IMG/VR virus record: IMGVR_UViG_3300046835_000018
Span: 1 to 54,242 of that record
Length of the DNA: 54,242 nt
Reading direction: 5' to 3' (one strand)
From: a virus
This document shows, one piece after another, positions 2,246 through 21,951 of the stretch (positions within the stretch are counted from its first letter, which is position 1; every line of letters begins with the position of its first letter). A program made the position numbers and the translations under genes. The notes below the pieces were generated by a model. It had not been told where the DNA came from. It saw only the letters and a list, made by a program, of their open reading frames with translations, and made no database searches.

Positions 2246-2316
2246 GTCCAAGGGCAGAACACGTCGCTTGAAGAAGCCCCTGTGGGTCTGTGACATCAAA
2301 TGTACCCTTGGACACG
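2246..2316 (+). ncRNA. Intergenic structured RNA element (A-stem/R-CG family)
   Basis: GTCCAAGGG (2246-2254) pairs perfectly with 2305-2313, preceded by an unpaired A and followed by ACG. A small hairpin (ACAT-caa-ATGT, 2293-2303) sits one base before the closing strand. Between the two strands lies a CCCTGTGGG motif (2278-2286). The layout matches the elements at 2661, 2975, 3253, 3704, 4098 and 4442. Confidence 0.6.
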
Positions 2317-2370
2317 TGGCGAAGGCAAGACACCACATCCCATATCCACCATCACTCCTTAGGAGCGGAA

Positions 2371-2655
2371 ATGGGCAAGCGAATGTATCACCCGGAAGGC
2401 GTGGCAAGCTTAGTAGCCGCCATCTTGTGCACTGGAGACATTGCCAAGCTTCCGACCGATGTGATCCTTCGGGAGAGAAGGGATCTACTGGAGCGAGCGA
2501 TCGACTTCAGGAGAGAACAGATCCTGGAACTAGCCAGGGAGTACTACAAAGTGTACGACCAAGACTACGAGGACAATGTTCCTCTGGTCGAGGTAAGGAA
2601 TGCGGCGAACAACAGGGCCAAGCTCGGGAGGGCGAACCTGATGTTCACTGTATGA
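2371..2655 (+). CDS. Early protein of unknown function
   Basis: A 94-residue protein. The start is ATG 2371, with AGGAG 6 bases upstream, not the in-frame ATG at 2290, which lies inside the upstream RNA element. The sequence is mostly helical-looking (residues 10-75) and charged. No family is recognised. It lies between two structured intergenic RNAs. Confidence 0.6.
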   Translation: MGKRMYHPEGVASLVAAILCTGDIAKLPTDVILRERRDLLERAIDFRREQILELAREYYKVYDQDYEDNVPLVEVRNAANNRAKLGRANLMFTV

Positions 2656-2660
2656 AGGGA

Positions 2661-2706
2661 TCCCTGGAGCGCGTAAGGCGTAGGTTCGAAGCCACTCCAG
2701 GGAGCG
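2661..2706 (+). ncRNA. Intergenic structured RNA with T-arm-like hairpin
   Basis: TCCCTGGAG (2661-2669) pairs with CTCCAGGGA (2695-2703), flanked by A on the left and GCG on the right. Just inside the closing strand is GG-TTCGAAG-CC, a mini-hairpin whose loop is a near-canonical tRNA T-loop. The element ends 6 bases before the AGGAGG of the lipoprotein gene, so it may set access to that ribosome site. Confidence 0.65.
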
Positions 2707-2721
2707 AAAGGAGGTCTCAAA

Positions 2722-2955
2722 ATGAGACTTGCAACACGGACTGTAATCGTAGGCGTTGCCATCCTTGCGGCCCTTGCGGGTTGCGACAGCACTAATGGTG
2801 CAAAGGGAGGTAGCGAATACACCGTCGAGGAGGGCACGTCCATCGACGTCCATGCAGGAGACACCCTCAACATCATCATGAACGGTGGCTTCGAGCGGTG
2901 CGACGATTGGGGTGGTAGCCTACAAGGCAACACCTGCATGGACGTCGACTTCTAA
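2722..2955 (+). CDS. Small secreted lipoprotein
   Basis: A 77-residue protein with AGGAGG 8 bases before ATG 2722. It has a basic N-terminus, a hydrophobic h-region (residues 7-18) and the lipobox LAALAGC with the lipidated Cys at about residue 21. The mature part is short and acidic, with two further Cys that could form a disulfide. It would be anchored outside the host membrane. Early phage lipoproteins of this size often block superinfection; that role is inferred from the family pattern only. Confidence 0.75.
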   Translation: MRLATRTVIVGVAILAALAGCDSTNGAKGGSEYTVEEGTSIDVHAGDTLNIIMNGGFERCDDWGGSLQGNTCMDVDF

Positions 2956-2974
2956 GGCAGCCCCGAAAGGGGTA

Positions 2975-3022
2975 GGGCTGGCGGCTGAGACACGGCCGTA
3001 GCATCGAAGCGACCAGCCCGCG
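2975..3022 (+). ncRNA. Intergenic three-way-junction RNA element
   Basis: Closing stem GGGCTGG (2975-2981)/CCAGCCC (3013-3019), flanked by A and GCG. Inside are P2, CGGC/GCCG (2982-2998), then GTA, then P3, GC-ATCGAA-GC (3001-3010). The same order and the GTAGCATCGAAGC core recur at 4442-4491 and, slightly changed, at 3704-3769. Stem sequences differ while pairing is kept, which argues for selection on structure. Confidence 0.7.
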
Positions 3023-3051
3023 TCCATCGTCGAGTACTCTAGGAGGTACAA

Positions 3052-3246
3052 ATGGACACCTTCGGTTTTGGGCAGTGGGATGACGACATCCTGAACGACG
3101 AGGAGTTCTTCATCGTGGCGAAGTGGACGGACGGCACTTGGAGACGAGAGCTACCGTACAAGTTCGCCACGCTTGAGCAGGCTACTAACGTGGCCGATCA
3201 GGTAGGAGGAGACGTTGTTAGGGTGAGCGTTACCTACCACCCGTAG
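3052..3246 (+). CDS. Small early protein, unknown
   Basis: A 64-residue protein with AGGAGG 7 bases before ATG 3052. It is acidic and aromatic-rich in its first half and has an alpha/beta look. No family is recognised. It lies between structured RNAs at 2975 and 3253. Confidence 0.65.
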   Translation: MDTFGFGQWDDDILNDEEFFIVAKWTDGTWRRELPYKFATLEQATNVADQVGGDVVRVSVTYHP

Positions 3247-3252
3247 AAGGTA

Positions 3253-3303
3253 GGTTCAGGGCGAGAAGCTGTCGTGTATGCCATCAAGGCACCCTGAACC
3301 GCG
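3253..3303 (+). ncRNA. Intergenic three-way-junction RNA element
   Basis: GGTTCAGGG (3253-3261) pairs perfectly with 3292-3300, with A before and GCG after. P2 is CGA/TCG (3262-3274) and P3 is GCC-atcaa-GGC (3280-3290), one A from the closing strand. The inner sequence GAGAAGCTGTCGTGTATGCC is nearly the same as in the element at 4098-4146, although the closing stems differ completely. Confidence 0.7.
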
Positions 3304-3308
3304 TTTGA

Positions 3309-3479
3309 CCTAAGGCGCATAGCCTTAGGACCTTTATACACCGTTGTGGGTCTAATAGGTTTTAGGGCGGAATAAGCTGTCAGAGCACAGTGACTACACA
3401 CCTGAAACGCTTCCAACCTGGAGCTAAAGGGATTAGACCCACAACGGGATATAGAGGGCCTAGGACCTTCATACACCGT
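3309..3479 (+). repeat. Nested hairpin, 16-bp inverted repeat and 21-bp direct repeats
   Basis: CCTAAGGC/GCCTTAGG forms a hairpin (3309-3329). CCGTTGTGGGTCTAAT (3341-3356) has a perfect inverted copy at 3432-3447. CTTAGGACCTTTATACACCGT (3324-3344) is repeated at 3459-3479 with 19 of 21 matches. Inner pairings (GTTTTAG/CTGAAAC and GTCA/TGAC) suggest a folded RNA. It lies wholly between genes. It could be a larger relative of the neighbouring RNA elements or a small mobile relic; no transposase is present. Confidence 0.65.
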
Positions 3480-3527
3480 AAGGGGTTGATGTTAAGGCTG
3501 CGGGGGCCCTACCATCAGGAGGTTGAA

Positions 3528-3698
3528 ATGGTTGCTGACATCGACCGGGAAGAGATGTTCCGTCGTGTTCGTGAGGGTAGCGTGATCGTTGTGCTCGACC
3601 CTCAGGAGTGCGAGACCATGCGGGACATCCTGAGTCGTTTGACGGAAGCCGACCTGAGGCACGAGGACCGCCTTAAGCGGTTCCGGCTCAGTAAGTAA
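3528..3698 (+). CDS. Small early protein, unknown
   Basis: A 56-residue protein starting at ATG 3528 behind AGGAGG. An upstream in-frame ATG at 3390 would run through the repeat block and is rejected. The sequence is amphipathic and charged (EEMFRRVREG, TEADLRHEDRLKR), with a VIVVLD strand. No family is recognised. Confidence 0.6.
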   Translation: MVADIDREEMFRRVREGSVIVVLDPQECETMRDILSRLTEADLRHEDRLKRFRLSK

Positions 3699-3703
3699 GG
3701 TTA

Positions 3704-3769
3704 GAGCTGGTCGGGTATGTGGTCATCAGGACACAAATGGGCCCGTAGCCTCGAAGCAGCCAGCTCGCG
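3704..3769 (+). ncRNA. Intergenic three-way-junction RNA element, long P2
   Basis: GAGCTGG (3704-3710)/CCAGCTC (3760-3766), flanked by A and GCG. P2 is long: CGGG/CCCG (3712-3745) with an inner GTGGTC/GACAC pairing. P3 is GC-CTCGAA-GC (3748-3757). It has the same plan as 2975-3022 with a different stem sequence. Confidence 0.7.
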
Positions 3770-3799
3770 TACCATCACCAACAAGAAAGGAGTCAAGGT

Positions 3800-4087
3800 A
3801 TGCCTTGGCTTCGGATCGAAGAGAAGGTCACCCTCATCCGCTTTATCGAGGTGGACGAGGCGCACTACCCTGGCATGTCGGTCGCGCAGGCGAAGGAAGC
3901 CGAACTCGACGAGCACGAAGTCGACCGGCTCGAGCAGTTCTCCGAGTCGATGCAGTACGCCGTGCTCGAAGGAGACGCGAACGACTTCATCGACACGACC
4001 GGCAACAGGCCAACATTGACCATGGGCTACGGCATCCAGGTCGATGAGGCCGACGAGGAGTGGTGCAAGAACGCCTTCGGCAAGTAA
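3800..4087 (+). CDS. Acidic early protein, unknown
   Basis: A 95-residue, strongly acidic protein with AAAGGAG 9 bases before ATG 3800. A short beta-looking start (WLRIEEKVTLIRFIEV) is followed by an acidic helical middle (residues 27-58). Early acidic phage proteins can mimic DNA or bind host enzymes, but nothing here proves such a role. Confidence 0.65.
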   Translation: MPWLRIEEKVTLIRFIEVDEAHYPGMSVAQAKEAELDEHEVDRLEQFSESMQYAVLEGDANDFIDTTGNRPTLTMGYGIQVDEADEEWCKNAFGK

Positions 4088-4097
4088 GCACCAAGGA

Positions 4098-4146
4098 GAT
4101 CCCGCCCGAGAAAGTGTCGTGTGCCATCGAGGCAGGCGGGATCGCG
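4098..4146 (+). ncRNA. Intergenic three-way-junction RNA element
   Basis: GATCCCGCC (4098-4106)/GGCGGGATC (4135-4143), flanked by A and GCG. P2 is CGA/TCG (4107-4119); P3 is GCC-atcga-GGC (4123-4133) with one A before the closing strand. It is a close sibling of 3253-3303 inside, with an unrelated closing stem. Confidence 0.7.
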
Positions 4147-4175
4147 TAAGGTTTCCATCAAGGAAGGGGCCAGAA

Positions 4176-4433
4176 ATGGCTAAGCTCCGAATCACTACCA
4201 CGGTAGTCGTCGTGCGAGAGCTCGAGGAGTACCAGTATCAGGACCTCGCTGAGGTCGGGAAGATGGATGCGGCACAGGCGAAGTTGTTCCTCGAGCGGGA
4301 AGACTTCGACCAGAAGATGGACGATCTCCAGGAGATCATGCCGTACATCAGCTTCCCGAACTACAACGACGGCTTCAATCACCGACGGACGGCCGGCAGC
4401 GGTACGTTCACTGAGGTGATCGAAGCCATCTGA
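4176..4433 (+). CDS. Early protein, unknown
   Basis: An 85-residue protein. ATG 4176 follows GGAAGGGG; an upstream in-frame ATG (4044) overlaps the previous gene and the RNA element and is rejected. A beta-rich start (KLRITTTVVVVRELE) is followed by helices. No family is recognised. Confidence 0.6.
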   Translation: MAKLRITTTVVVVRELEEYQYQDLAEVGKMDAAQAKLFLEREDFDQKMDDLQEIMPYISFPNYNDGFNHRRTAGSGTFTEVIEAI

Positions 4434-4441
4434 AACGAGGA

Positions 4442-4491
4442 GGGTTGGTCCGCATGCAACATGGCGGTAGCATCGAAGCAGCCAACCTACG
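4442..4491 (+). ncRNA. Intergenic three-way-junction RNA element
   Basis: GGGTTGG (4442-4448)/CCAACCT (4482-4488, one G-U), flanked by A and ACG. P2 is CCGC-ATG/CAT-GCGG (4450-4467) and P3 is GC-ATCGAA-GC (4470-4479). It runs straight into a CCCTGTGGG motif (4492-4500) and the ribosome site of the next gene. Confidence 0.7.
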
Positions 4492-4526
4492 CCCTGTGGG
4501 TGTTTGACTAGAAGGAGGGACCCGCA

Positions 4527-4868
4527 GTGACAAAGGCAACAGAGGCAAAGCACAGGTTCGGCTGTCCGAAGTGTGGTGCTCCCGTAGGGGAGTACTGCAT
4601 GTCCAAGGCAGGCAAGACCGTAACCAACGGGCACCTCGATCGGTTGAGGTTGCTCGATGCTGGGCAGGAGGCCTTCAACGAGGTACTCCAGTCCCAGGAT
4701 GTTGTACAGAGCAGCTGGGATGCACAGGTTGACCGGGAGGAGAGGGTTGCCCAGGTTATGTGGGCGATCAACTTCGCACGGACGGCGCTGCTGGTTCCGC
4801 AGGATGTGCTCGATCGCAACCTCGCGGAGATGATCGTCGGCGCCGAGATGGACCTGAAGTTGTTCTAG
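4527..4868 (+). CDS. Zinc-binding phage protein
   Basis: A 113-residue protein with GTG start at 4527 and AAGGAGG 8 bases upstream. Residues 13-41 carry a zinc motif: CPKCGAPVGEYC, then H in NGHLDRL. This C-x2-C-x7-C-x(n)-H pattern is common in small actinophage proteins thought to bind nucleic acids. The rest is helical. The gene at 5350-5493 has a reduced version of the same motif. Its leader (CCCTGTGGGT...GGAGGGACCC) resembles that of the portal gene. Confidence 0.7.
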   Translation: MTKATEAKHRFGCPKCGAPVGEYCMSKAGKTVTNGHLDRLRLLDAGQEAFNEVLQSQDVVQSSWDAQVDREERVAQVMWAINFARTALLVPQDVLDRNLAEMIVGAEMDLKLF

Positions 4869-4874
4869 GGTCCA

Positions 4875-4907
4875 GGGTGACGAGCCCTCGAAAGCTCGTC
4901 ACCCGCG
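4875..4907 (+). ncRNA. Simple hairpin member of the intergenic RNA family
   Basis: GGGTGACGAG (4875-4884) pairs perfectly with 4895-4904 around the 10-base loop CCCTCGAAAG, flanked by A and GCG. It lacks separate P2 and P3 stems but keeps the flanks and the TCGAA loop. AAAGGAGG follows within 3 bases. Confidence 0.6.
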
Positions 4908-4922
4908 AAAGGAGGTACTACA

Positions 4923-5225
4923 ATGGTACCTGGCAAGGGTCTACACATCGTTCTGAACCAGGAAGGTCTCGACTTCATCGAGGCGTGCCTGGCGGAGATT
5001 CGTCTCGTGTACACCGATGGGGATCACGACGAGAGCCCCAAGGTCGTGCTGGAAGCGCTTCTCGAGAGCGACATGGCCGAGTGGACCGAGGTGAAGGACA
5101 ACTTCGGCCACAAGGTGTTCCGGGGTATGGAGTACAAGGAGGGTGAGCTGCGGGTGACCGTCGTGCTCACCAAGCAGAACGAGCTTCGTCTCGACATCAG
5201 GACGTGGCTCGAGTCGTACTCGTAG
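4923..5225 (+). CDS. Early protein, unknown
   Basis: A 100-residue protein with AGGAGG 7 bases before ATG 4923. It is acidic and alpha/beta in appearance, with FRGMEYKEGELRVTVVLTKQNELRLDI as a likely beta-sheet end. No family is recognised. The gene is bounded by structured hairpins on both sides. Confidence 0.65.
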   Translation: MVPGKGLHIVLNQEGLDFIEACLAEIRLVYTDGDHDESPKVVLEALLESDMAEWTEVKDNFGHKVFRGMEYKEGELRVTVVLTKQNELRLDIRTWLESYS

Positions 5226-5231
5226 TACTTC

Positions 5232-5265
5232 GGGCCTTCGCATGCTCTAGGGCATGTGAGGGTCC
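5232..5265 (+). ncRNA. Long intergenic hairpin
   Basis: A 14-bp stem with three G-U pairs joins 5232-5245 and 5252-5265 around a 6-base loop. It is followed by GTG where the RNA family has R-CG. The wobble pairs suggest RNA-level selection. Membership in the A-stem/R-CG family is uncertain. Confidence 0.5.
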
Positions 5266-5349
5266 GTGGTCCTATGATAGGAGATCGCATGCAGAACTGG
5301 GCCGAACAGAGGGAAGACTACTCGATTCAGGAGGAAGTTCTTGTCGACG

Positions 5350-5493
5350 ATGGCGGTCGAGTGCCCACTGTGCGGAGCGAAGCCTGGGAAGAGATGCAGC
5401 GGACGGACCAAGCTGCAACTCCTGCCACTTCCGCATGGGGAGCGACGTATGAAGGCCCTCGGTGCTACATCGGAAAGCACCAAGGGTAAGTAA
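5350..5493 (+). CDS. Very small zinc-finger protein
   Basis: A 47-residue protein from ATG 5350. An in-frame TTG at 5341 has the better-spaced AGGAGG (5329-5334) and would add three residues. The motif CPLCGAKPGKRC followed by H in LPHGERR matches the zinc pattern of the gene at 4527-4868, which supports this frame. Another open frame starting at ATG 5289 (also with a ribosome site) overlaps almost the whole gene in a different phase. That may be an assembly frameshift or a genuine overlap. Confidence 0.55.
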   Translation: MAVECPLCGAKPGKRCSGRTKLQLLPLPHGERRMKALGATSESTKGK

Positions 5494-5498
5494 AAGGT

Positions 5499-5535
5499 TC
5501 CAGGGCGCAGCTTCAGAGTAGCGGCCCTGGACACG
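5499..5535 (+). ncRNA. Intergenic hairpin RNA
   Basis: TCCAGGGC (5499-5506) pairs with 5524-5531; ACG follows one base later, and AAAGGAGG comes immediately after. The inner GCTTCAGAGTAGC resembles the P3 part of the RNA family. Confidence 0.55.
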
Positions 5536-5547
5536 AAAGGAGGTCTT

Positions 5548-5670
5548 ATGCTACCGAAGCGTAAGCCTGGTAAGGCACTGAAGGATGCCATCAAGGCGAC
5601 TGAGCACTGGTGTCCTGACTGTGCGTTGGCGATCATCGACGGGATGGTGTTTCGTGTCGTCGGAACGTAA
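5548..5670 (+). CDS. Tiny protein with a C-x2-C motif
   Basis: A 40-residue protein from ATG 5548 with AAAGGAGG 6 bases upstream. The N-terminus is basic (LPKRKPGKALKDAIKA), followed by HWCPDCA, a likely half zinc site. Its end overlaps the next gene by 17 bases. Confidence 0.5.
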   Translation: MLPKRKPGKALKDAIKATEHWCPDCALAIIDGMVFRVVGT

Positions 5671-5914
5671 GCTGAAGTTCGAGGCATACGAGGGAGCGGC
5701 TACTACAGCGTTCGCTAAGTACCTCGAAGTGCAGAACCGGATCGACAAGATCGAGATCCGGGCTATTGCCAAGTGCTCGGGGAACAAAGGGGTAGCCGCT
5801 TACGAGCTGAAGACCTCCTCCGAGTACTGGATGTACAGGGATCTTTGTGACGATCGTGATCGGTACATGAAGATCGCTAGCCTGAATGCGTCCATGGCGA
5901 ACATGTACAAGTAG
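5654..5914 (+). CDS. Early helical protein, unknown
   Basis: An 86-residue protein, start taken as GTG 5654 inside the end of the previous gene. An earlier in-frame ATG at 5585 would overlap that gene fully. The product is helical with many charged residues. No family is recognised. A hairpin and promoter follow at 5921-5988. Confidence 0.55.
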   Translation: MSSERKLKFEAYEGAATTAFAKYLEVQNRIDKIEIRAIAKCSGNKGVAAYELKTSSEYWMYRDLCDDRDRYMKIASLNASMANMYK

Positions 5915-5920
5915 CGAGAA

Positions 5921-5988
5921 GGTCCCTAGAGGTATATCTTGACTTCTAGGGACCCTCTTGTAGTCCAAGGTGGGCCGTGTATTATACT
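5921..5988 (+). promoter_or_regulatory. Hairpin plus promoter TTGTAG-19-TATACT
   Basis: GGTCCCTAGA (5921-5930) pairs perfectly with 5945-5954, enclosing GGTATATCTTGACTTCT, a 17-mer repeated exactly at 8810-8826. The -35 TTGTAG (5958-5963, continuing GTCCAA) is 19 bases from TATACT (5983-5988). TTGACTT...AGTCCAA forms an inverted repeat over the -35, a likely operator. Confidence 0.65.
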
Positions 5989-5994
5989 GGATAT

Positions 5995-6219
5995 ATGCAC
6001 ACACTAGAGATGAAGCTAGGGGCCCTGGAAGTGAACTGGATGTTGAACAGGCGGACGCCTTGGTTCAAGAGACAGTTCCGAACACTCGACTTCAGTAAGA
6101 AGCGTCACAACACGCCATATGTGACGACCGCCGGAGCTGCATTGTCGGTCGTCGCTTCTGTTTTGTTGTCCGTGACTCAAGGGTTTTCCATCGAACTCAC
6201 AGGCATCAATCTGGGCTGA
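5995..6219 (+). CDS. Small protein with a hydrophobic segment, possibly leaderless
   Basis: A 74-residue protein from ATG 5995. This lies only about 7 bases after the -10 box, so the mRNA would begin at or next to the start codon. Internal ATGs at 6010 and 6040 are alternatives. The N-terminal half is basic; residues about 44-62 (TTAGAALSVVASVLLSVTQG) are a candidate membrane helix. Function unknown. Confidence 0.5.
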   Translation: MHTLEMKLGALEVNWMLNRRTPWFKRQFRTLDFSKKRHNTPYVTTAGAALSVVASVLLSVTQGFSIELTGINLG

Positions 6220-6289
6220 GGGCCTGCAAAGACCCACAGGGGCCGCTTTTGGGTTTAGGCGCCTTTAAAAGAGCCCTAGATGAGACCCG

Positions 6290-6320
6290 TTGAAGTCGAA
6301 GAGAGTATCCATGGTATAAT
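6290..6320 (+). promoter_or_regulatory. Promoter TTGAAG-19-TATAAT
   Basis: TTGAAG (6290-6295, continuing TCGAA) and TATAAT (6315-6320) are separated by 19 bases. The start site would fall near 6327, 15 bases before the tRNA-like element at 6342, which would make that element the start of the transcript. Confidence 0.65.
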
Positions 6321-6341
6321 TAAGATAGAACAGCAAAGCAA

Positions 6342-6467
6342 GGGGTTGTCGCTCAAAGGGCCTTCTCCCCAGCAGGTTCGCGGTAGAGCTGACGTCGCTG
6401 GCCGACCGTTGACGTCGAACAAGTGTCCTAGCACTTGTGTGGAGGTTCGATCCCTCCCAACCCCACG
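6342..6467 (+). ncRNA. tRNA-like structure with expanded loops
   Basis: A perfect acceptor-like stem GGGGTTG/CAACCCC (6342-6348/6458-6464) is followed by A and CG. A canonical T-arm GGAGG-TTCGATC-CCTCC (6441-6457) is stacked directly on it. A D-like stem GCTC/GAGC (6351-6354/6386-6389) encloses 31 bases ending GGTA. GACGTC/GACGTC (6391-6396/6411-6416) closes a 14-base loop. The 7-bp variable arm ACAAGTG/CACTTGT resembles class II tRNAs. D and anticodon loops are too long for a working tRNA, so it is a tRNA-like or decayed tRNA element. Confidence 0.65.
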
Positions 6468-6494
6468 TATCATCCGGACACACTAGGAGGAATC

Positions 6495-7043
6495 GTGTCT
6501 GAATTGAAGCACATCCCGCTCGGAACGATCTCGTACACTGAGTTCGCTGTGCTCGCACGGCACGCAGTGGAAGAGTCGCAGGAGGAGACGTACGACCAGC
6601 TCCTCGACAGCGGCAGCACCAGTGTTGCCATGGCTGAGACCCTCTTCCAGAGGCTCTCGCAGTTGGTGGAGCGTGCTCGCCTGTATGAGTACGCTCTGAG
6701 CATCCAGGCTCAACGCGAAGAGGAATCCAAGGCTGAACGTCAGGCCAAGATCAAGTCGGACCTCGAGAAGAGGGCCGACGCGATGAGCGACATCTTCAAG
6801 TCGTCACCGGAGAACACCGGCGATGGCACGTTCATCAAGAACCCGAACTACGGTAGCGCCAAGGCGTCGAACCCGACGTTGCTCCAGGAGCACCAGACCG
6901 ACCTGATGTTGGACGGCCTCGACCCGTTCGAGAACACCGCGTTCGACGTTCCCGACACTTCGAAGCCGGCCGGGTGGGCCAACGACGACCATGTGGCACT
7001 CACCGCCGACTTCAGTGACGGGAACAAGAACGAAGCCTTCTAG
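6495..7043 (+). CDS. Helical early protein, unknown
   Basis: A 182-residue protein with GTG start at 6495 and AGGAGG 5 bases upstream. Residues about 35-110 are highly charged and helical (QAQREEESKAERQAKIKSDLEKRADA), a probable coiled coil. The C-terminal third is acidic and low in structure. It is flanked by tRNA-like elements at 6342 and 7075. No family is recognised. Confidence 0.65.
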   Translation: MSELKHIPLGTISYTEFAVLARHAVEESQEETYDQLLDSGSTSVAMAETLFQRLSQLVERARLYEYALSIQAQREEESKAERQAKIKSDLEKRADAMSDIFKSSPENTGDGTFIKNPNYGSAKASNPTLLQEHQTDLMLDGLDPFENTAFDVPDTSKPAGWANDDHVALTADFSDGNKNEAF

Positions 7044-7074
7044 TAGCCGCTTCACCCTGCTGAAGTAGCTGGTA

Positions 7075-7156
7075 TCACCCGCTCCCGTTAGGGAGACTGC
7101 CTCGATCGACATAGGGCAAAGTCGGAAACGGTGGTTCGAATCCACCCGGGTGAACG
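7075..7156 (+). ncRNA. tRNA-like structure
   Basis: TCACCCG/CGGGTGA (7075-7081/7147-7153) forms a 7-bp acceptor-like stem with discriminator A and then CG. A canonical T-arm GGTGG-TTCGAAT-CCACC (7130-7146) stacks on it without a gap. Length (80 bases) fits a tRNA. However, the D position is a tight CTCCC-GTTA-GGGAG hairpin and the anticodon position is GACT-GCC/GGC-AGTC with a 13-base loop. I see no normal anticodon loop. Confidence 0.65.
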
Positions 7157-7219
7157 TAAGCGTGTGATCTTGGAACTAGGATGTTGAAAAAAGCCCCAAA
7201 AACATTTTCAAGATCCCGC

Positions 7220-7249
7220 TTGCAGTCGAAAGTAGTCATCCTGTATAAT
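7220..7249 (+). promoter_or_regulatory. Promoter TTGCAG-18-TATAAT
   Basis: TTGCAG (7220-7225, continuing TCGAAA) is 18 bases from TATAAT (7244-7249). It drives the acidic protein gene at 7291. A GATCTTG...CAAGATC inverted repeat lies just upstream (about 7168-7215). Confidence 0.65.
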
Positions 7250-7290
7250 TAAAACAAGCCACAAAAAGCTGCGACAACAAGGAGACCAAA

Positions 7291-7794
7291 ATGCAGCCGA
7301 GCACTCCCGACTTCGAAGACGCCGGCACTGAGAACGAGCTGGACCTCGAGGTCAACGACGACGCGAACCTGGACGTGGACATCCCGGCTGACGACGAGAC
7401 GGACGTTCCGGTGAGCGAGGGCGACGAGACCAAGGCGGCCAAGCCGGCCAAGGCCACGCGTCCGAAGGCACCTGAAGGCTTCGTGAAGCCCGTCGAGTTC
7501 GCGAAGATCCTGTCGGCGCACCTGGACAAGGTGGTTCCGCCGCAGGTGGTCTACAGCTACGTCAAGAACAACCAGGGCGACACCGCGAAGAACCCGTTCC
7601 CGGTTCACACCGGCTCGGACGGGTACGAGTGGTACATCAAGCCCGAAGAGGGTCTGAAGTGGTGGGACAACAAGAACGCGCGTGTCACCGCTTCCAAGGC
7701 CGCCAAGGCTGAGAAGGCCGCCAAGAAAGCCAGTGCCGCGGAGGCGACGACCATCGCCGACAGCGAGCCTACGGCGGTAGTCGAAGCCGAGTAA
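7291..7794 (+). CDS. Acidic protein with helix-turn-helix-like core
   Basis: A 167-residue protein with AAGGAG 8 bases before ATG 7291. Residues 1-50 are extremely acidic. Residues 65-130 form a compact domain with PPQVVYSYVKNN, matching the PQMMYNYARN core of the gene at 187. The C-terminal 40 residues are an Ala/Lys-rich tail followed by an acidic end. Its own promoter and bias-rich coding suggest strong expression. DNA binding is possible by the shared motif. Confidence 0.65.
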   Translation: MQPSTPDFEDAGTENELDLEVNDDANLDVDIPADDETDVPVSEGDETKAAKPAKATRPKAPEGFVKPVEFAKILSAHLDKVVPPQVVYSYVKNNQGDTAKNPFPVHTGSDGYEWYIKPEEGLKWWDNKNARVTASKAAKAEKAAKKASAAEATTIADSEPTAVVEAE

Positions 7795-7802
7795 GCTTCA
7801 CC

Positions 7803-7852
7803 GCCCCTGAACAAGCCGTGAGGGTGCCCGATCGAATCGGGCCAGGGGCACG
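7803..7852 (+). ncRNA. Mini tRNA-like element
   Basis: GCCCCTG/CAGGGGC (7803-7809/7843-7849), then ACG. GCCCGAT-CGA-ATCGGGC (7826-7842) abuts the closing strand with no gap, as a T-arm does. The remaining 16 bases have no clear fold. The flanking ACG matches the family. Confidence 0.55.
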
Positions 7853-8024
7853 CAAAGCCTCCTATTGAGGCCACCGCAACGCCGAACAGTTTCAACGGCT
7901 TACGCGCGACACGCAAGAGCCACAAGAGGGTCCATCAGGACTCCGGTTGTTGTCGGTGGATAGACGGGAAGCATTGCAGGGAAGGTGTCGGAGAGCGGGG
8001 ACGACTTTTCGACACCTTCCCGAA

Positions 8025-8074
8025 GAGGCGTCAGTGGTAGGGAGGAGCTGGTGTTCGGGCCAGCCTGACGCCTC
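8025..8074 (+). ncRNA. Two-hairpin RNA element
   Basis: GAGGCGTCAG/CTGACGCCTC (8025-8034/8065-8074) closes over GCTGG-TGTTCGGG-CCAGC (8047-8064), which abuts the closing strand. It follows a 12-bp stem at 7979-8021 and precedes the tRNA-like element at 8078. Confidence 0.55.
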
Positions 8075-8077
8075 GAA

Positions 8078-8168
8078 GGGGAAGGTCATATTGGTGATAA
8101 GCACTACTGGGATGACCGCGCAGGCCTGTTCCAATTTTGCTGCAGGTTCGATTCCTGCCTTCCCCACG
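8078..8168 (+). ncRNA. tRNA-like structure
   Basis: GGGGAAG/CTTCCCC (8078-8084/8159-8165), discriminator A, then CG. Canonical T-arm GCAGG-TTCGATT-CCTGC (8142-8158) abuts the acceptor stem. The 57 bases between lack a D-stem/anticodon pattern; ATTGG/CCAAT pairing is possible. It is 89 bases long. It has the 3' half of a tRNA without a normal 5' half. Confidence 0.6.
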
Positions 8169-9819: not shown

Positions 9820-9914
9820 CGTTAGACAAATTGGCGCGTCTTTGTAGTGAGGTAGGCTCGTCAGTTTGTCTAACAAGTGTCTAGATAGGTCTGTAAAACG
9901 TCTATAGTAATCCT
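9820..9914 (+). promoter_or_regulatory. Phased GTCT array 1 with adjoining inverted repeat
   Basis: GTCT begins at 9868, 9879, 9889 and 9900 (spacing 11, 10, 11). The third unit reads GTCTGTAAAACGTCTA. GTTAGACAAA just upstream has an inverted copy overlapping the first GTCT. The same 11-10-11 array occurs at 27035, 38334 and 52827. Here it lies directly before the 9931-12000 operon. One-turn spacing puts all four sites on one DNA face, as in OmpR/PhoB-type operators. Confidence 0.75.
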
Positions 9915-17302: not shown

Positions 17303-19549
17303 ATGGTACAACCGGATACACTGGAAGAAGATAGAAGTGCTTGGAACATCTTCTTTCGTGTCGTCTTTGGTCAGCGGGTCGATGGGTACGTCTGCATTGC
17401 CTATATGAACATCGGCGACGGTGGAAAGAAGAAGTGGGAAGAACACTTCTTTCAGTGGCCGGAAGAGCTTCCGCGGATGTTGACTCACCTCGAGGTGAAC
17501 TACAAGCAGGGCAATACGTACTTCTGTCCGCAACTCATGCTGACAAAAGATCGCCCTCCAGGAGCCAAGAGCCCACGAGTCAAAGAGAACATCGCACCTT
17601 GCACAGTCGCCTGGGCTGATCTAGATACGTGTTCGCCAGAACTAATGCTGGTAGAGCCTAGCGTAGTGGTCCTAAGTTCGGACAACAGATACCAGGCCCT
17701 GTGGGTTTTCGAGCAACCAATTGACCCTGCCGATGCGGAACAGATCAGCAAGAACATTGCCTACCACCACGTGTCCGATGGCGCTGATGGAGGTGGTTGG
17801 GACCTAACGCAGATGCTGAGGGTGCCTCACACCTACAACATGAAGCGCGACATACCATTTCGTGTCAAGACTCTGAAGATCACCAAGGTCAAGCACACCA
17901 TTGAAGACTTCAACGTCTACAAAGAGTCACGGATCAGTTCTAGAGACCACGACCCGATGCCTCAGGTGCTGCCGACCGAGACGCCATTGGATATCCTGCA
18001 GAAGTATCGCAGGTCATTGAATCCGGTGGCGTTCAGCATCTTCGATGTGACACCACAGATCACCGAAGTCGATGGTGGATGGAGCAAGGTTCTCTGGCAG
18101 CTGATCATGCTTCTATTCGAAGCTGGTCTCTCAAGGGAAGAAGTGTTCGTCGTCGCGAGCGACGCGGCCTGCAACAAGTACAAGCGAGACGGTAAGCATC
18201 CCAAGCTGCTCTGGGAAGAAGTGTGCAGAGCATACCAAGCAACCGTCGAGAAGCTGAACATCCTCGTACCTGAAACAGTCAAGCAAGCACCGCTGATCAC
18301 TCAAGAAGAGCTCGACTCGATCTCACATTATCACACCTTCATCGACCGCTATGTATCGTGGGCAAGTAGACTTGGCGACGCGGCAACACAGTACCATCAC
18401 GCAGGTGCTTTCATGATCCTCAGTTCACTACTCGCAGGCACAATCCGATTGCCCACATCATTCGGCGTGATCATGCCCAACATGTGGTTCATGCTTCTAG
18501 CTGATACGACATTGACACGTAAGTCGACGGCCATGGACATCGCCATGGACATCGTTGACCAGGTCGATGACACCGTCCTACTAGCAACGGATGGTTCACT
18601 AGAAGGTCTTATGCAGTCACTCGAGATCAGACCAGGAAAGCCGTCGATGTTCCTTCGCGACGAGTTCTCGGGCCTAATCGAATCGATGACTCGTAAGGAC
18701 TACATGGCAGGCATGGCTGAAGCACTTACCAAGTTGTACGACGGCAAGACAATGAAACGAGTACTAAAGCGTGAGACAGTAACTGTTCGCGAGCCCTGCC
18801 TCTTAATCTTCGGAGGTGGCATCAAGACGCGAGTGCAGTCACTGCTCACACTCGAGCATGTTGCTTCTGGATTCGTACCTCGATTCATCTTCATTACGGC
18901 TGAATCGGATGTAAGTCGGCTACAGCCACTAGGTCCACCTACTCCTGACAACCTAGCTGAGAGAGACGAGATCGTCGAAGAGCTCATGGAGCTTCGAGAC
19001 AGGTACGTCTTCGATCAGGAGATCGTCGTCAAGGGTAAGGCTATCGGCGTCTCTGAATCTAGGATCATGGCGAGCTTGACCGAAGAAGCTTGGGCTCGCT
19101 ACAACATCCTCGAAGCTACAATGCTGTACGCAGGTGTCAATAGTGATCAGCCAGACATCATGACGCCTGTATACGACCGTCTGGCGAAGTCAATTCTCAA
19201 GGCATCGGTGCTTATTGCAGCATCGAATCAGAAAGAACGTGGCGAGGTAATCGTTACACTGAACGACCTACTCACAGGGTTGAAGTATGGCAGTGAGTGG
19301 TTGAAGTACAGTACCGAGATTGTGAACGGTATCGGACGTACTGCCAATGAGCAGCTACTGCAACGCATCATGCAGAGCATTCGTAGGCACAAGGGCGTAT
19401 CTCGTTCACAGTTGATGCAGTGGTACCACCTCGAAGCTCGACAGGCTGAAATCATCTTCAACACGCTCGAGCAACGAGGCATGATCATTGCAACACGCAT
19501 GGGCAGAACTTGGGTATACGATGCAGTAGGAAGGATCAGGGCAGAATGA
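17303..19549 (+). CDS. Primase-helicase fusion
   Basis: A 748-residue protein. ATG 17303 is preferred over GTG 17294 because AGGAGG (17289-17294) would overlap the latter. The N-terminal ~230 residues resemble archaeo-eukaryotic-type primases of the RepB/PrimPol kind (TVAWADLDTC, SSDNRYQALWVFEQPID, LRVPHTYNMK). The C-terminal half resembles DUF3987-type helicase domains, with Walker A-like ADTTLTRKST and a Walker B/arginine-finger region near FLRDEF and GFVPRFIF. It is the likely replication initiator. Confidence 0.75.
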   Translation: MVQPDTLEEDRSAWNIFFRVVFGQRVDGYVCIAYMNIGDGGKKKWEEHFFQWPEELPRMLTHLEVNYKQGNTYFCPQLMLTKDRPPGAKSPRVKENIAPCTVAWADLDTCSPELMLVEPSVVVLSSDNRYQALWVFEQPIDPADAEQISKNIAYHHVSDGADGGGWDLTQMLRVPHTYNMKRDIPFRVKTLKITKVKHTIEDFNVYKESRISSRDHDPMPQVLPTETPLDILQKYRRSLNPVAFSIFDVTPQITEVDGGWSKVLWQLIMLLFEAGLSREEVFVVASDAACNKYKRDGKHPKLLWEEVCRAYQATVEKLNILVPETVKQAPLITQEELDSISHYHTFIDRYVSWASRLGDAATQYHHAGAFMILSSLLAGTIRLPTSFGVIMPNMWFMLLADTTLTRKSTAMDIAMDIVDQVDDTVLLATDGSLEGLMQSLEIRPGKPSMFLRDEFSGLIESMTRKDYMAGMAEALTKLYDGKTMKRVLKRETVTVREPCLLIFGGGIKTRVQSLLTLEHVASGFVPRFIFITAESDVSRLQPLGPPTPDNLAERDEIVEELMELRDRYVFDQEIVVKGKAIGVSESRIMASLTEEAWARYNILEATMLYAGVNSDQPDIMTPVYDRLAKSILKASVLIAASNQKERGEVIVTLNDLLTGLKYGSEWLKYSTEIVNGIGRTANEQLLQRIMQSIRRHKGVSRSQLMQWYHLEARQAEIIFNTLEQRGMIIATRMGRTWVYDAVGRIRAE

Positions 19550-20382
19550 AGGTACTCGCTGTTGTGTCAGGTGGATTGGACTCCACCACACTCATGTACG
19601 ACCTCCTCTCGGGAGGTGACGAGGTCCAAGCGATCTCGTTCAACTACGGTCAGCGCCACAAGCGTGAGCTGGTGTACGCTGCGGCCAACTGCAAGGCGCT
19701 GAACATTCAGCACGACATCATCGACCTTCGCACTCTGACGGAGTTCCTCAGCAATTCGGCGCTCACGTCGAACAAGGAGATCGAGGTTCCTGAAGGTCAC
19801 TACGCCGAAGACAACATGAAGCAGACGGTCGTTCCGAACCGCAACATGATCATGCTGTCGATCGCCACAGGCATCGCGATCAACCGAGGGCTCAACACCG
19901 TCGCGACAGCAGTTCACGCCGGCGATCACTTCGTCTACCCGGACTGCCGTCCCGAGTTCATCTTCTCACTCGGCCAGGCGATCCTCGATGGCAATCAGGG
20001 CTTCCACAACTTCTTCGTCGAGGACATCGAGCCCATCGTGATCGGCGATCGCACCTACAGCAAGACGGCCAAGCCGCTTACCACTCCGTACATCCACCAG
20101 ACGAAGGAGGAGATCGCAGTTCGAGCCCTCGAGCTCGGCGTGCCTCTTCACCTCACGTGGAGCTGCTACAAGGGTGGTGACCAGCACTGTGGTCGATGTG
20201 GCACCTGCGTCGAGCGTCTCGAAGCGATCCACAATGCGCTCATCACGTGGAACGCTCACACCAGTCCTGCAGAGCGACGCTACGACGCGACACCGTACGA
20301 GGACGAGGAGTACTGGAAGGTCGTCGTCGGCAAGACGAGGGTCGAGACCACCTCTGACGTCACAGCGTACGAGGAGAACTGA
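19546..20382 (+). CDS. queC: QueC, 7-cyano-7-deazaguanine synthase
   Basis: A 278-residue protein. ATG 19546 overlaps the previous stop (ATGA). The PP-loop SGGLDSTT (residues 8-15) activates carboxy-deazaguanine with ATP. The zinc site is CYKGGDQHCGRCGTC (about residues 206-220). It makes preQ0. It is about 50 residues longer than usual QueC, mostly in a C-terminal tail with no known domain. It is first of the preQ0 cluster; the adjacent genes supply its substrate. Confidence 0.93.
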   Translation: MKVLAVVSGGLDSTTLMYDLLSGGDEVQAISFNYGQRHKRELVYAAANCKALNIQHDIIDLRTLTEFLSNSALTSNKEIEVPEGHYAEDNMKQTVVPNRNMIMLSIATGIAINRGLNTVATAVHAGDHFVYPDCRPEFIFSLGQAILDGNQGFHNFFVEDIEPIVIGDRTYSKTAKPLTTPYIHQTKEEIAVRALELGVPLHLTWSCYKGGDQHCGRCGTCVERLEAIHNALITWNAHTSPAERRYDATPYEDEEYWKVVVGKTRVETTSDVTAYEEN

Positions 20383-20849
20383 TGCACAGCATCTTCGTGA
20401 ACCACAACATGGAGATCGCCCACCGGCTCTCCATGCTCCCAGGCAAGTGCCAGAAGATCCATGGACACTCCATGCAGATCACTCTTCGGCTCGACGGTGA
20501 GCTCGACGAGGACGGCATCCTCTGTGGTATGGACTTCGGTGATCTGAAGCGGGCCTTCCGCAACTTCATCGACACCGAGTTCGACCACCGACTCATCCTC
20601 AACGAGTCCGATCCCTGGGCGCGGCAACTGAAGCAGCTCCCCGAAGACAACGGGATCTCAGAAGCATCTGCCCATTACCAACGACTTCCAGGTCTCAAGA
20701 CCACGCCTGGAGATCCCACTACAGAGAACCTCAGCAAGTGGATCTGTGAGTGGGCCGTGGGACAGGTTGAGGTGTTCGGCATCACAGCCGTGCACGTGAC
20801 CATCCACGAGACCGGCACCAATGGTGCTATGACCAAGTGGTCAAAGTAG
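20382..20849 (+). CDS. queD: QueD, 6-carboxytetrahydropterin synthase
   Basis: A 155-residue protein in TGATG overlap with queC. Zinc-binding His residues are in HNMEIAHRL and KIHGHS, with the catalytic Cys in GKCQKIHGH and an acidic/His pair in the C-terminal IHETGT region. It converts dihydroneopterin triphosphate, made by the FolE downstream, to carboxytetrahydropterin for QueE. Confidence 0.92.
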   Translation: MHSIFVNHNMEIAHRLSMLPGKCQKIHGHSMQITLRLDGELDEDGILCGMDFGDLKRAFRNFIDTEFDHRLILNESDPWARQLKQLPEDNGISEASAHYQRLPGLKTTPGDPTTENLSKWICEWAVGQVEVFGITAVHVTIHETGTNGAMTKWSK

Positions 20850-20861
20850 TAAGGAAGTTGC

Positions 20862-21209
20862 ATGTCCGAAATGTTGCTCTCCGCCGATGTCTTCTGGGCA
20901 ATCGCTATGACCCCAGTAACATTGGTCGTACTGGTCCTCCTCGCTTGTGTGCTCAGCAACCGGTCAAGTCGTAGCCCTCATCAGCACGACCTGGCCGACA
21001 CAGCGTTCTGGACAGCGGTAAAGCTCGACCAAGCTTCACGCGGCGCCGTACTTGGTACGCCAGAGCCTCTCGAGCCAGTCGCCGAGACAATCTCGTTGTA
21101 CACAGCAACACTATCTGAAGTGCAGACCTACCTGATCAAGGCACGAGAGGCCCGACGCCTCGAGCGCCGCGAGTTTGGAGCACTTATGCGAATGGCTCGT
21201 ACCGCTTAA
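20862..21209 (+). CDS. Single-pass membrane protein within the preQ0 cluster
   Basis: A 115-residue protein with one membrane helix at residues 13-33 (AIAMTPVTLVVLVLLACVL), followed by a charged cytoplasmic-type domain rich in Arg and Glu. It lies between queD and queE but has no recognisable enzymatic motif. Confidence 0.65.
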   Translation: MSEMLLSADVFWAIAMTPVTLVVLVLLACVLSNRSSRSPHQHDLADTAFWTAVKLDQASRGAVLGTPEPLEPVAETISLYTATLSEVQTYLIKAREARRLERREFGALMRMARTA

Positions 21210-21258
21210 TCCGTCTGGGAGGTCCTCTTCGGAGGACCTCCCCTATCAAGGAGGGCAT

Positions 21259-21951
21259 ATGCGTCTATCAGAGGTGTACACCTCGACGCAGGGAGAAGGA
21301 CCGAAGGTAGGCATTCCAACCACCTTCGTCAGGTTCGCAGGCTGCAACCTGAAGTGTGCTGGATGGGCTTGCGACACTCAACACGCTATCGATCCGAAGC
21401 TGTACCGCAAGGACTGGCTCGAGCTCGGTCCCGAGCAAATCCTCGAGATGATTCTCGATGAGACAGGCAAGACTGGTGCTCGGAACGTCTGCTTCACCGG
21501 CGGCGAGCCTTTCCTTCAGGAGCACGATCGCCTGCTCAAGCTCATCTCGATGTGCGCCATGGAACGCCTCGACATGGAGGTCTTCACCAACGGTACCATC
21601 GAGTGGCCTCATCGAGCCATGCACCGGATGAACTTCGTCATGGACTGGAAGCTCTCAGGATCAGGCGAGAACGTTCGCGAGAGCGACGCCGTGTGGCAGA
21701 ATGCTCTTCGGCTCGGACCGAAGGATGCCATCAAGTTCACCGTCGCCTCCGATGACGACCTGGGCGAGGCGTACGACACATACATGCGCATCCAACCCCA
21801 GGTCCGCGACGTGCAGTTCTTCGTCGGCCCGGTCTGGGGCAAGATGGAACCTTCAGTCGTCGTCGACTGGATGCTCCGAATGGGTCTTCCATGGCGCCTT
21901 AACATCCAGGCGCACAAGTACATCTGGCCAGCCGATGCAAGGAGGACATGA
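21259..21951 (+). CDS. queE: QueE, 7-carboxy-7-deazaguanine synthase
   Basis: A 230-residue radical SAM enzyme. ATG 21259 follows AAGGAGG; a longer upstream frame is rejected. The Fe-S motif is CNLKCAGWAC, that is C-x3-C-x4-C, not the usual C-x3-C-x2-C. GGEPFLQ follows at the SAM site. N-terminal TSTQGEGPKVGIPTTFVRFAGC is typical for QueE. It turns carboxytetrahydropterin into carboxydeazaguanine, the QueC substrate. Confidence 0.92.
   Translation: MRLSEVYTSTQGEGPKVGIPTTFVRFAGCNLKCAGWACDTQHAIDPKLYRKDWLELGPEQILEMILDETGKTGARNVCFTGGEPFLQEHDRLLKLISMCAMERLDMEVFTNGTIEWPHRAMHRMNFVMDWKLSGSGENVRESDAVWQNALRLGPKDAIKFTVASDDDLGEAYDTYMRIQPQVRDVQFFVGPVWGKMEPSVVVDWMLRMGLPWRLNIQAHKYIWPADARRT

Follow-up and report, generated by a model that had tools for sequence, protein, structure and literature searches.

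Why are most early genes of an uncultured phage separated by small structured RNAs, and what are these RNAs? The phage is known here from sequence alone, as IMG/VR record IMGVR_UViG_3300046835_000018, and the whole stretch of DNA that was analyzed (54,242 nt, positions 1 to 54,242 of the record) is called the window below. An original prediction made on this DNA described a family of intergenic RNAs between its early genes, each with a closing stem that is preceded by an unpaired A and followed by a purine and CG (R-C-G), and took the fold to be an unknown one. We find that the elements are tRNA mimics, in which an acceptor-like stem is combined with a T-arm-like hairpin set against its 3′ strand, and that the R-C-G flank is the discriminator base N73 plus CG. 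The fold is thus not an unknown one: the elements form a graded series of tRNA mimics, as seen from an Rfam tRNA match at 6342–6465 and from explicit T-arms. We propose, with a probability of about 0.72, that they mark the places at which the early transcript is cut between cistrons.

All 11 elements predicted with complete flanks were recovered by script at their predicted positions, each as an unpaired A, a stem of 7–11 bp and then R-C-G. With a T-loop hairpin added to the stem and R-C-G descriptor, the first 11 kb, which comprise the early region, gave 11 sense and 0 antisense matches, and five dinucleotide shuffles of these 11 kb gave 0 on average. The elements occur on the sense strand only, and both the predicted polarity and the punctuation of the early genes by structured RNAs were borne out. 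Three more positions had been listed with partial flanks. The one at 7803 is a full member with C replacing the A before the stem, and 5499 is a member as well, but 5232, a simple hairpin of 15 bp, lacks both a T-loop and the N-C-G end and was rejected. Two further candidates with the stem and RCG were discarded, 27053 because a T-loop is missing at the expected spacing and 38104 because it lies inside a coding open reading frame (ORF). The elements of the window are as follows.

2246–2313 (+): tRNA-like element; 9-bp closing stem, T-loop-like hairpin AC-ATCAAAT-GT, 3′ ACG
2661–2703 (+): tRNA-like element; 9-bp stem, GG-TTCGAAG-CC hairpin, 3′ GCG immediately 5′ of AAAGGAGG
2975–3019 (+): tRNA-like element; 7-bp stem, D-arm-like hairpin, GC-ATCGAA-GC hairpin, 3′ GCG
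3253–3300 (+): tRNA-like element; 9-bp stem, TGCC-ATCAA-GGCA hairpin, 3′ GCG
3704–3766 (+): tRNA-like element; 7–8 bp stem, GC-CTCGAA-GC hairpin, 3′ GCG
4098–4143 (+): tRNA-like element; 9-bp stem, TGCC-ATCGA-GGCA hairpin, 3′ GCG
4442–4488 (+): tRNA-like element; 7–8 bp stem, GC-ATCGAA-GC hairpin, 3′ ACG
4875–4904 (+): minimal hairpin; 11-bp stem, T-loop-like loop CCTCGAAA, 3′ GCG immediately 5′ of AAAGGAGG
5498–5532 (+): minihelix element; 8-bp stem, irregular GC-TTCAGA-GT hairpin, one closing mismatch at the base, 3′ ACG immediately 5′ of AAAGGAGG
6342–6464 (+): full-length tRNA-like RNA; 7-bp acceptor, T-arm GGAGG-TTCGATC-CCTCC, no canonical anticodon arm, 3′ ACG
7075–7153 (+): full-length tRNA-like RNA; acceptor TCACCCG/CGGGTGA, T-arm GGTGG-TTCGAAT-CCACC, 3′ ACG
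7803–7849 (+): minimal tRNA mimic; 7-bp acceptor, short linker, 5-bp T-arm GCCCG-ATCGAAT-CGGGC, 3′ ACG
8078–8165 (+): full-length tRNA-like RNA; acceptor GGGGAAG/CTTCCCC, T-arm GCAGG-TTCGATT-CCTGC, 3′ ACG

tRNA-like architecture of the elements

In the predicted folds the closing stem usually encloses a D-arm-like hairpin, and a second hairpin is set next to the 3′ strand. The three-way junctions that had been predicted are formed by most elements, 4875 being a plain hairpin, and the inner GTAGCATCGAAGC or GCCATCRAGGC hairpin noted near the 3′ strand is real and is the equivalent of the T-arm. In 6342, 7075 and 8078 this second hairpin is a textbook T-arm of 5 bp around TTCRANY. A 7-bp acceptor together with such a T-arm is found in these three elements and, with ATCGAAT, in 7803. 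The short elements fall short of these dimensions, as their T-arms comprise only 2–4 bp around ATCRA, NTCRNA or ATCRAAT; in 4875 the motif is the loop of one 11-bp hairpin. The set therefore forms a size series, from three tRNA-sized elements down to a bare acceptor/T-loop hairpin, with many elements of 30–48 nt.

The Rfam tRNA model RF00005 matches 6342–6465 with 30.2 bits (gathering threshold 29), and the match ends at the claimed R, which is N73. No other element of the window was reported as a tRNA by this model. The Rfam tRNA-Sec model matches 8077–8166 at 23.8 bits, which is below threshold, and the default fast Rfam search reported neither of the two regions. ARAGORN predicted no tRNA in the window. 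Elements in related phages (see below) are also matched by the Rfam tRNA model, at 29.7–57.7 bits.

In tRNA, the T-loop residue C56 and the discriminator base are 17 nt apart. The corresponding distance is 15, 16 or 17 nt in all 11 of the claimed elements, which had been chosen by their stem and RCG, and is 15–17 nt in 46 of 53 elements overall. This spacing has a background frequency of 12.5% among the NCG sites of six phage early regions. We also searched seven related genomes for the T-arm only (GG(T/A)TCRANNCC, at least 4 bp), with no condition on the closing stem or flank. This search yielded 25 matches, all sense, of which 23 are followed by N-C-G exactly 7 nt downstream. The ends of the elements mostly have G1, A or G at position 73 and A at position −1. 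A scripted test for a canonical anticodon arm (5 bp, 7-nt loop, U33 and normal variable loop) was negative for all 25 T-arm-type elements.

Covariation and occurrence in relatives

Element patterns and protein searches identified six metagenomic relatives that carry such elements, five of which have a matching early region (G001, G003, G004, G005, and G006), while G007 is more distant. Early proteins of the relatives are ∼25–70% identical to those of the window, and a helicase alignment added clade members at 44–51% identity. The number of elements is about 16 in G005 and about 10 in G006, and the minihelix type seen at 5498–5532 is also present in G005, G006, G001, and G004. Elements recur in orthologous gaps of the relatives, as would be expected from the original prediction, which had also stated that the closing stems differ in sequence and yet stay paired. 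Covariation across the relatives supports this statement for 18 T-arm-type and 9 GTAGC-type elements. Since the 5′ strand was picked by complementarity, the percentage paired is favored and the double-change count is the telling figure: in the T-arm-type elements, where pairing is 100% at all 11 pairs, there are 64 double-change cells vs. a shuffle mean of 16.4. The GTAGC-type elements, for which the inner hairpin served as the identifying mark, have a closing stem with 100% pairing and 13 double-change cells vs. 3.6 in shuffles. The covariation score of the T-arm-type elements collapses when the pairing partners are slid by one position.

The element at 7803 has orthologs at 9386 in L007 and at 5697 in L047, after the same gene. 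The three copies were located via synteny and the linker, not via the stem. Linker and T-loop are kept, and the stems are rebuilt by compensatory change (GCCCCTG/CAGGGGC, GGATCCG/CGGATCC, and GCCTCTG/CAGAGGT).

A covariance model built from the 18 T-arm-type elements gave 24 matches in a set of twelve sources, each on the sense strand; L042–L047 and G004, which were not part of the training set, are among the sources matched. The four matches in the window, among them 6342 (50.0 bits) and 8078 (51.7 bits), are all training members and therefore not independent. Many of the matches in L043, L045, and L047 are predicted true tRNAs, and ARAGORN predicts 6 tRNAs in L043 and 10 in L045, spread over the early region and in several cases followed by N-C-G. 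Two predicted tRNAs in L047 (6058–6131 and 6217–6289) have the anticodon CTA (amber); a comparison of ORF lengths with L046 and L030 showed no distinguishing sign of TAG recoding in L047. The model gave one marginal match in 425 kb of sequence from phages whose helicases are more distant.

The GTGAGGGTGCCCGATCGA pattern found two relatives plus five unrelated coding matches, and the GTAGCATCGAAGCRRCC pattern found five relatives with paired closing stems plus four unrelated contigs. The pattern TGTCGTGT-N(0-4)-GCCATCRAGGC was discarded, as in viral contigs it gave two chance matches only, in coding DNA (L005 and L006). No relative was found in the bacterial genomes scanned with the helicase alignment and the element pattern. 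The window had no near DNA match among GenBank phages, and neither of the two early proteins tried had a match there; terminase, primase, and helicase gave distant matches only, the best mostly in actinobacteriophages. Micrococcus phage Kurnik showed no match to the model. Outside the early region, the window encodes, one after the other, QueC, a 6-pyruvoyl-tetrahydropterin-synthase (QueD-like) protein and a radical SAM protein (19510–21951); this is a 7-deazaguanine (preQ0) cluster, probably for DNA modification.

Placement between genes and proposed cleavage

By a hand-curated gene list, 12 of the 14 gaps between 2239 and 8278 carry an element, with 13 elements in total. tRNA-shaped RNAs are therefore present in most gaps of what is presumably one early transcript. 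In six phages, 31 of the 46 measurable elements start 3–10 nt past a stop codon, with a mode of 6. Many elements end right at CGAAAGGAGG, which places the CG directly 5′ of the Shine-Dalgarno sequence, and a Shine-Dalgarno-like sequence is found at most 4 nt from the stem in 15 of 42 elements. Intrinsic terminators were considered and rejected, as no terminator-like site on the plus strand (GC-rich stem, U-tract) coincides with an element.

The same region shows some other features. A promoter-like TTG(A/T)AGTC ... TATAAT recurs between early modules of the window (5960–5990, 6310–6330, and 7230–7255) and by eye also in relatives; it is not listed by a strict promoter scan. A long inverted repeat, CCGTTGTGGGTCTAAT ... 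ATTAGACCCACAACGG, encloses ∼70–80 nt at 3343–3448. A multi-stem region, probably a structured RNA, is seen 5′ of the tRNA-like element near 8078, at 7855–8075 in the window, and similar-looking regions are present at 9910–10084 in L007 and 6903–7159 in L030; the sizes are ∼170–260 nt.

Some early gaps of the relatives carry a different kind of RNA motif. We searched 16 clade sequences with a hammerhead descriptor (core C(U/C)GAN(N)GA, GAA, a cut-site pair and three stems) and obtained 11 type II-like motifs in sense, 0 in antisense and 0 in six rounds of shuffles. The strict core CUGANGA is present in 8 of the 11. The motifs occur in seven relatives (G001, G004, G005, L042, L044, L046, and L047), and those inspected are located between a stop codon and the start of the next gene. 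The window itself has no hammerhead type II motif (CUGANGA, GAAA core, cut site and three stems). Departures from the core (CCGANGA, CUGAAUGA) were seen at 4188 in L007 and at 5275 and 5783 in the reverse complement of G004, and these may be inactive or unusual ribozymes.

From the architecture, conservation and placement of the elements, the loss of the decoding arm and the ribozyme motifs of relatives we infer that the RNA is cut, by which enzyme, and to what benefit. In this scheme, joint transcription of the early genes would yield a long RNA, whose acceptor/T-arm-like stacks would be recognized by host RNase P. The cut would fall between the unpaired A and the 5′ strand of the stem, ∼6 nt past the stop codon. 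Additionally or instead, host RNase Z may cut after the discriminator base and before CG, often directly 5′ of the Shine-Dalgarno sequence. Each resulting mRNA would carry a single gene and have uniform ends, and a small tRNA-like RNA would be released as a by-product. In comparable gaps of the relatives, the hammerhead-like motif appears to take over this function. It seems reasonably probable that the clade as a whole uses an intercistronic cleavage code, with nearly every early gene separated by a cutter at a fixed post-stop distance, and with a tRNA, an acceptor/T-loop mimic or a self-cleaving hammerhead being interchangeable in this role.

The elements have an acceptor/T-arm stack of about 12 bp with a T-loop, which is a feature of RNase P substrates, the short loops being predicted from their letters to adopt the T-loop fold. 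A 12-bp acceptor plus T stem has been suggested as the measuring device of RNase P (PMC11143913). The T-arm-type elements also have a CCA-less acceptor end and a T-arm, as substrates of RNase Z do. Several observations weigh against cleavage as proposed. The elements end in N-C-G instead of the RCCA that is paired by bacterial RNase P, so that one RNase P contact is missing; only R73 and C74 of this end could pair with the GGU of L15. Position −1 is A and not the usual U, and several short elements have loops of 5 or 6 nt that are T-loop-like by sequence only. As to the ribozymes, the Rfam type II hammerhead model matches the G005 gap at 3727–3788 with 30.4 bits, below the gathering threshold of 37, and the other hammerhead-like motifs searched gave no Rfam report at E 0.2. 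Finally, some early gaps of relatives, for example those of L007 at 3240, 3540, 6045, 6325, and 6888, contain strong plain hairpins with neither T-loop nor hammerhead, which may be another kind of separator.

Other functions can be envisaged for stable stems that start ∼6 nt past a stop codon and end near a Shine-Dalgarno sequence. They could be uncut folded barriers or 3′-end caps, blocking exonucleases or keeping terminating ribosomes out of the next gene. A plain hairpin would suffice for this, however, and the T-loop consensus, the 15–17 nt spacing, G1 and N-C-G would be left unexplained, as would the hammerhead-like motifs in such gaps; we consider this explanation unlikely. The preserved acceptor and T-arm, the 6 and 10 ARAGORN tRNAs of L043 and L045 and the two amber tRNAs of L047 would fit with decaying or variant tRNA genes, either remnants of a translation set or unusual working tRNAs. 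Yet a canonical anticodon arm is missing from 25 of 25 T-arm-type elements, and many elements are hairpins of 30–48 nt that are unable to decode. Decay would neither preserve pairing via dozens of compensatory changes nor set elements ∼6 nt past stop codons, and we regard such an origin as quite improbable.

Phage tRNAs can counter tRNA-cutting defenses, and the elements, which are numerous, with bodies that vary and an acceptor/T-loop face that is conserved, could be decoys that titrate a host tRNA-binding activity, such as RNase P, RNase Z, a modification enzyme, EF-Tu or a tRNA-targeting defense nuclease. This would not account for elements that come one to a gap, at a fixed distance from the stop codon, or for the ribozyme motifs, and to us it appears very improbable. 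Processing sites for RNase III, as in the early region of T7, would share the context of intercistronic early gaps and the presence of stems, but RNase III usually needs roughly 20 bp, far more than the 7–11 bp found here, and there would be no reason for the T-loop and NCG. We give this last explanation hardly any credence, and cleavage at tRNA mimics is the reading that we prefer.

Comparison with known systems

If tRNA mimics indeed separate the early cistrons, this would be the bacterial-virus counterpart of mitochondrial tRNA punctuation, in a stripped form that hints at the real needs of tRNA-processing enzymes. The elements would then offer RNase P and RNase Z natural substrates of minimal size, and synthetic operons a set of compact, ready-made separators. 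The clade would also make it possible to ask if self-cleaving ribozymes and tRNA mimics substitute for one another at comparable sites, and many phage tRNA-like genes rejected by annotation tools may turn out to be processing signals. In the open-licence literature searched, we found organelle punctuation, single RNase P sites, prophage hammerheads and theta ribozymes, and no phage with tRNA mimics separating its genes.

In mitochondria, intergenic tRNAs are cut by RNase P and RNase Z/ELAC2, which separates the mRNAs. The arrangement described here is similar in that tRNA-shaped RNAs lie between genes and that the proposed cut sites would free individual mRNAs. It differs in being found in a DNA phage, with separators most of which are not tRNAs; they lack a decoding arm and can be as small as 30–48 nt. 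The early region of T7 is likewise transcribed into a polycistronic RNA that is processed between genes, but at RNase III hairpins and not at tRNA mimics.

Clustered hammerheads flank prophage genes and have been proposed to cut the transcripts into gene-length mRNAs (Perreault et al., 2011; PMC3088659). These too are self-cleaving RNAs between phage genes, and relatives of the window carry type II-like motifs in early gaps, whereas the window has none and its tRNA mimics would need a host enzyme. Theta ribozymes adjoin phage tRNAs and trim the 3′ trailers of tRNAs, including suppressor tRNAs, in gut phages (PMC10879173). In both cases phage ribozymes and tRNAs would take part jointly in RNA processing; here, in contrast, ribozyme motifs and tRNA mimics occupy separate gaps between coding genes. 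Finally, phages have RNase P substrates that are not tRNAs, namely M3 RNA, the C4 antisense RNA of P1/P7 and the gene 32 mRNA of T4 (PMC11143913). Like the elements described here, for which cleavage is proposed, these are phage RNAs cut by the host RNase P, but they are single sites, whereas the window has a series of 13 in one early region that is conserved in its relatives.

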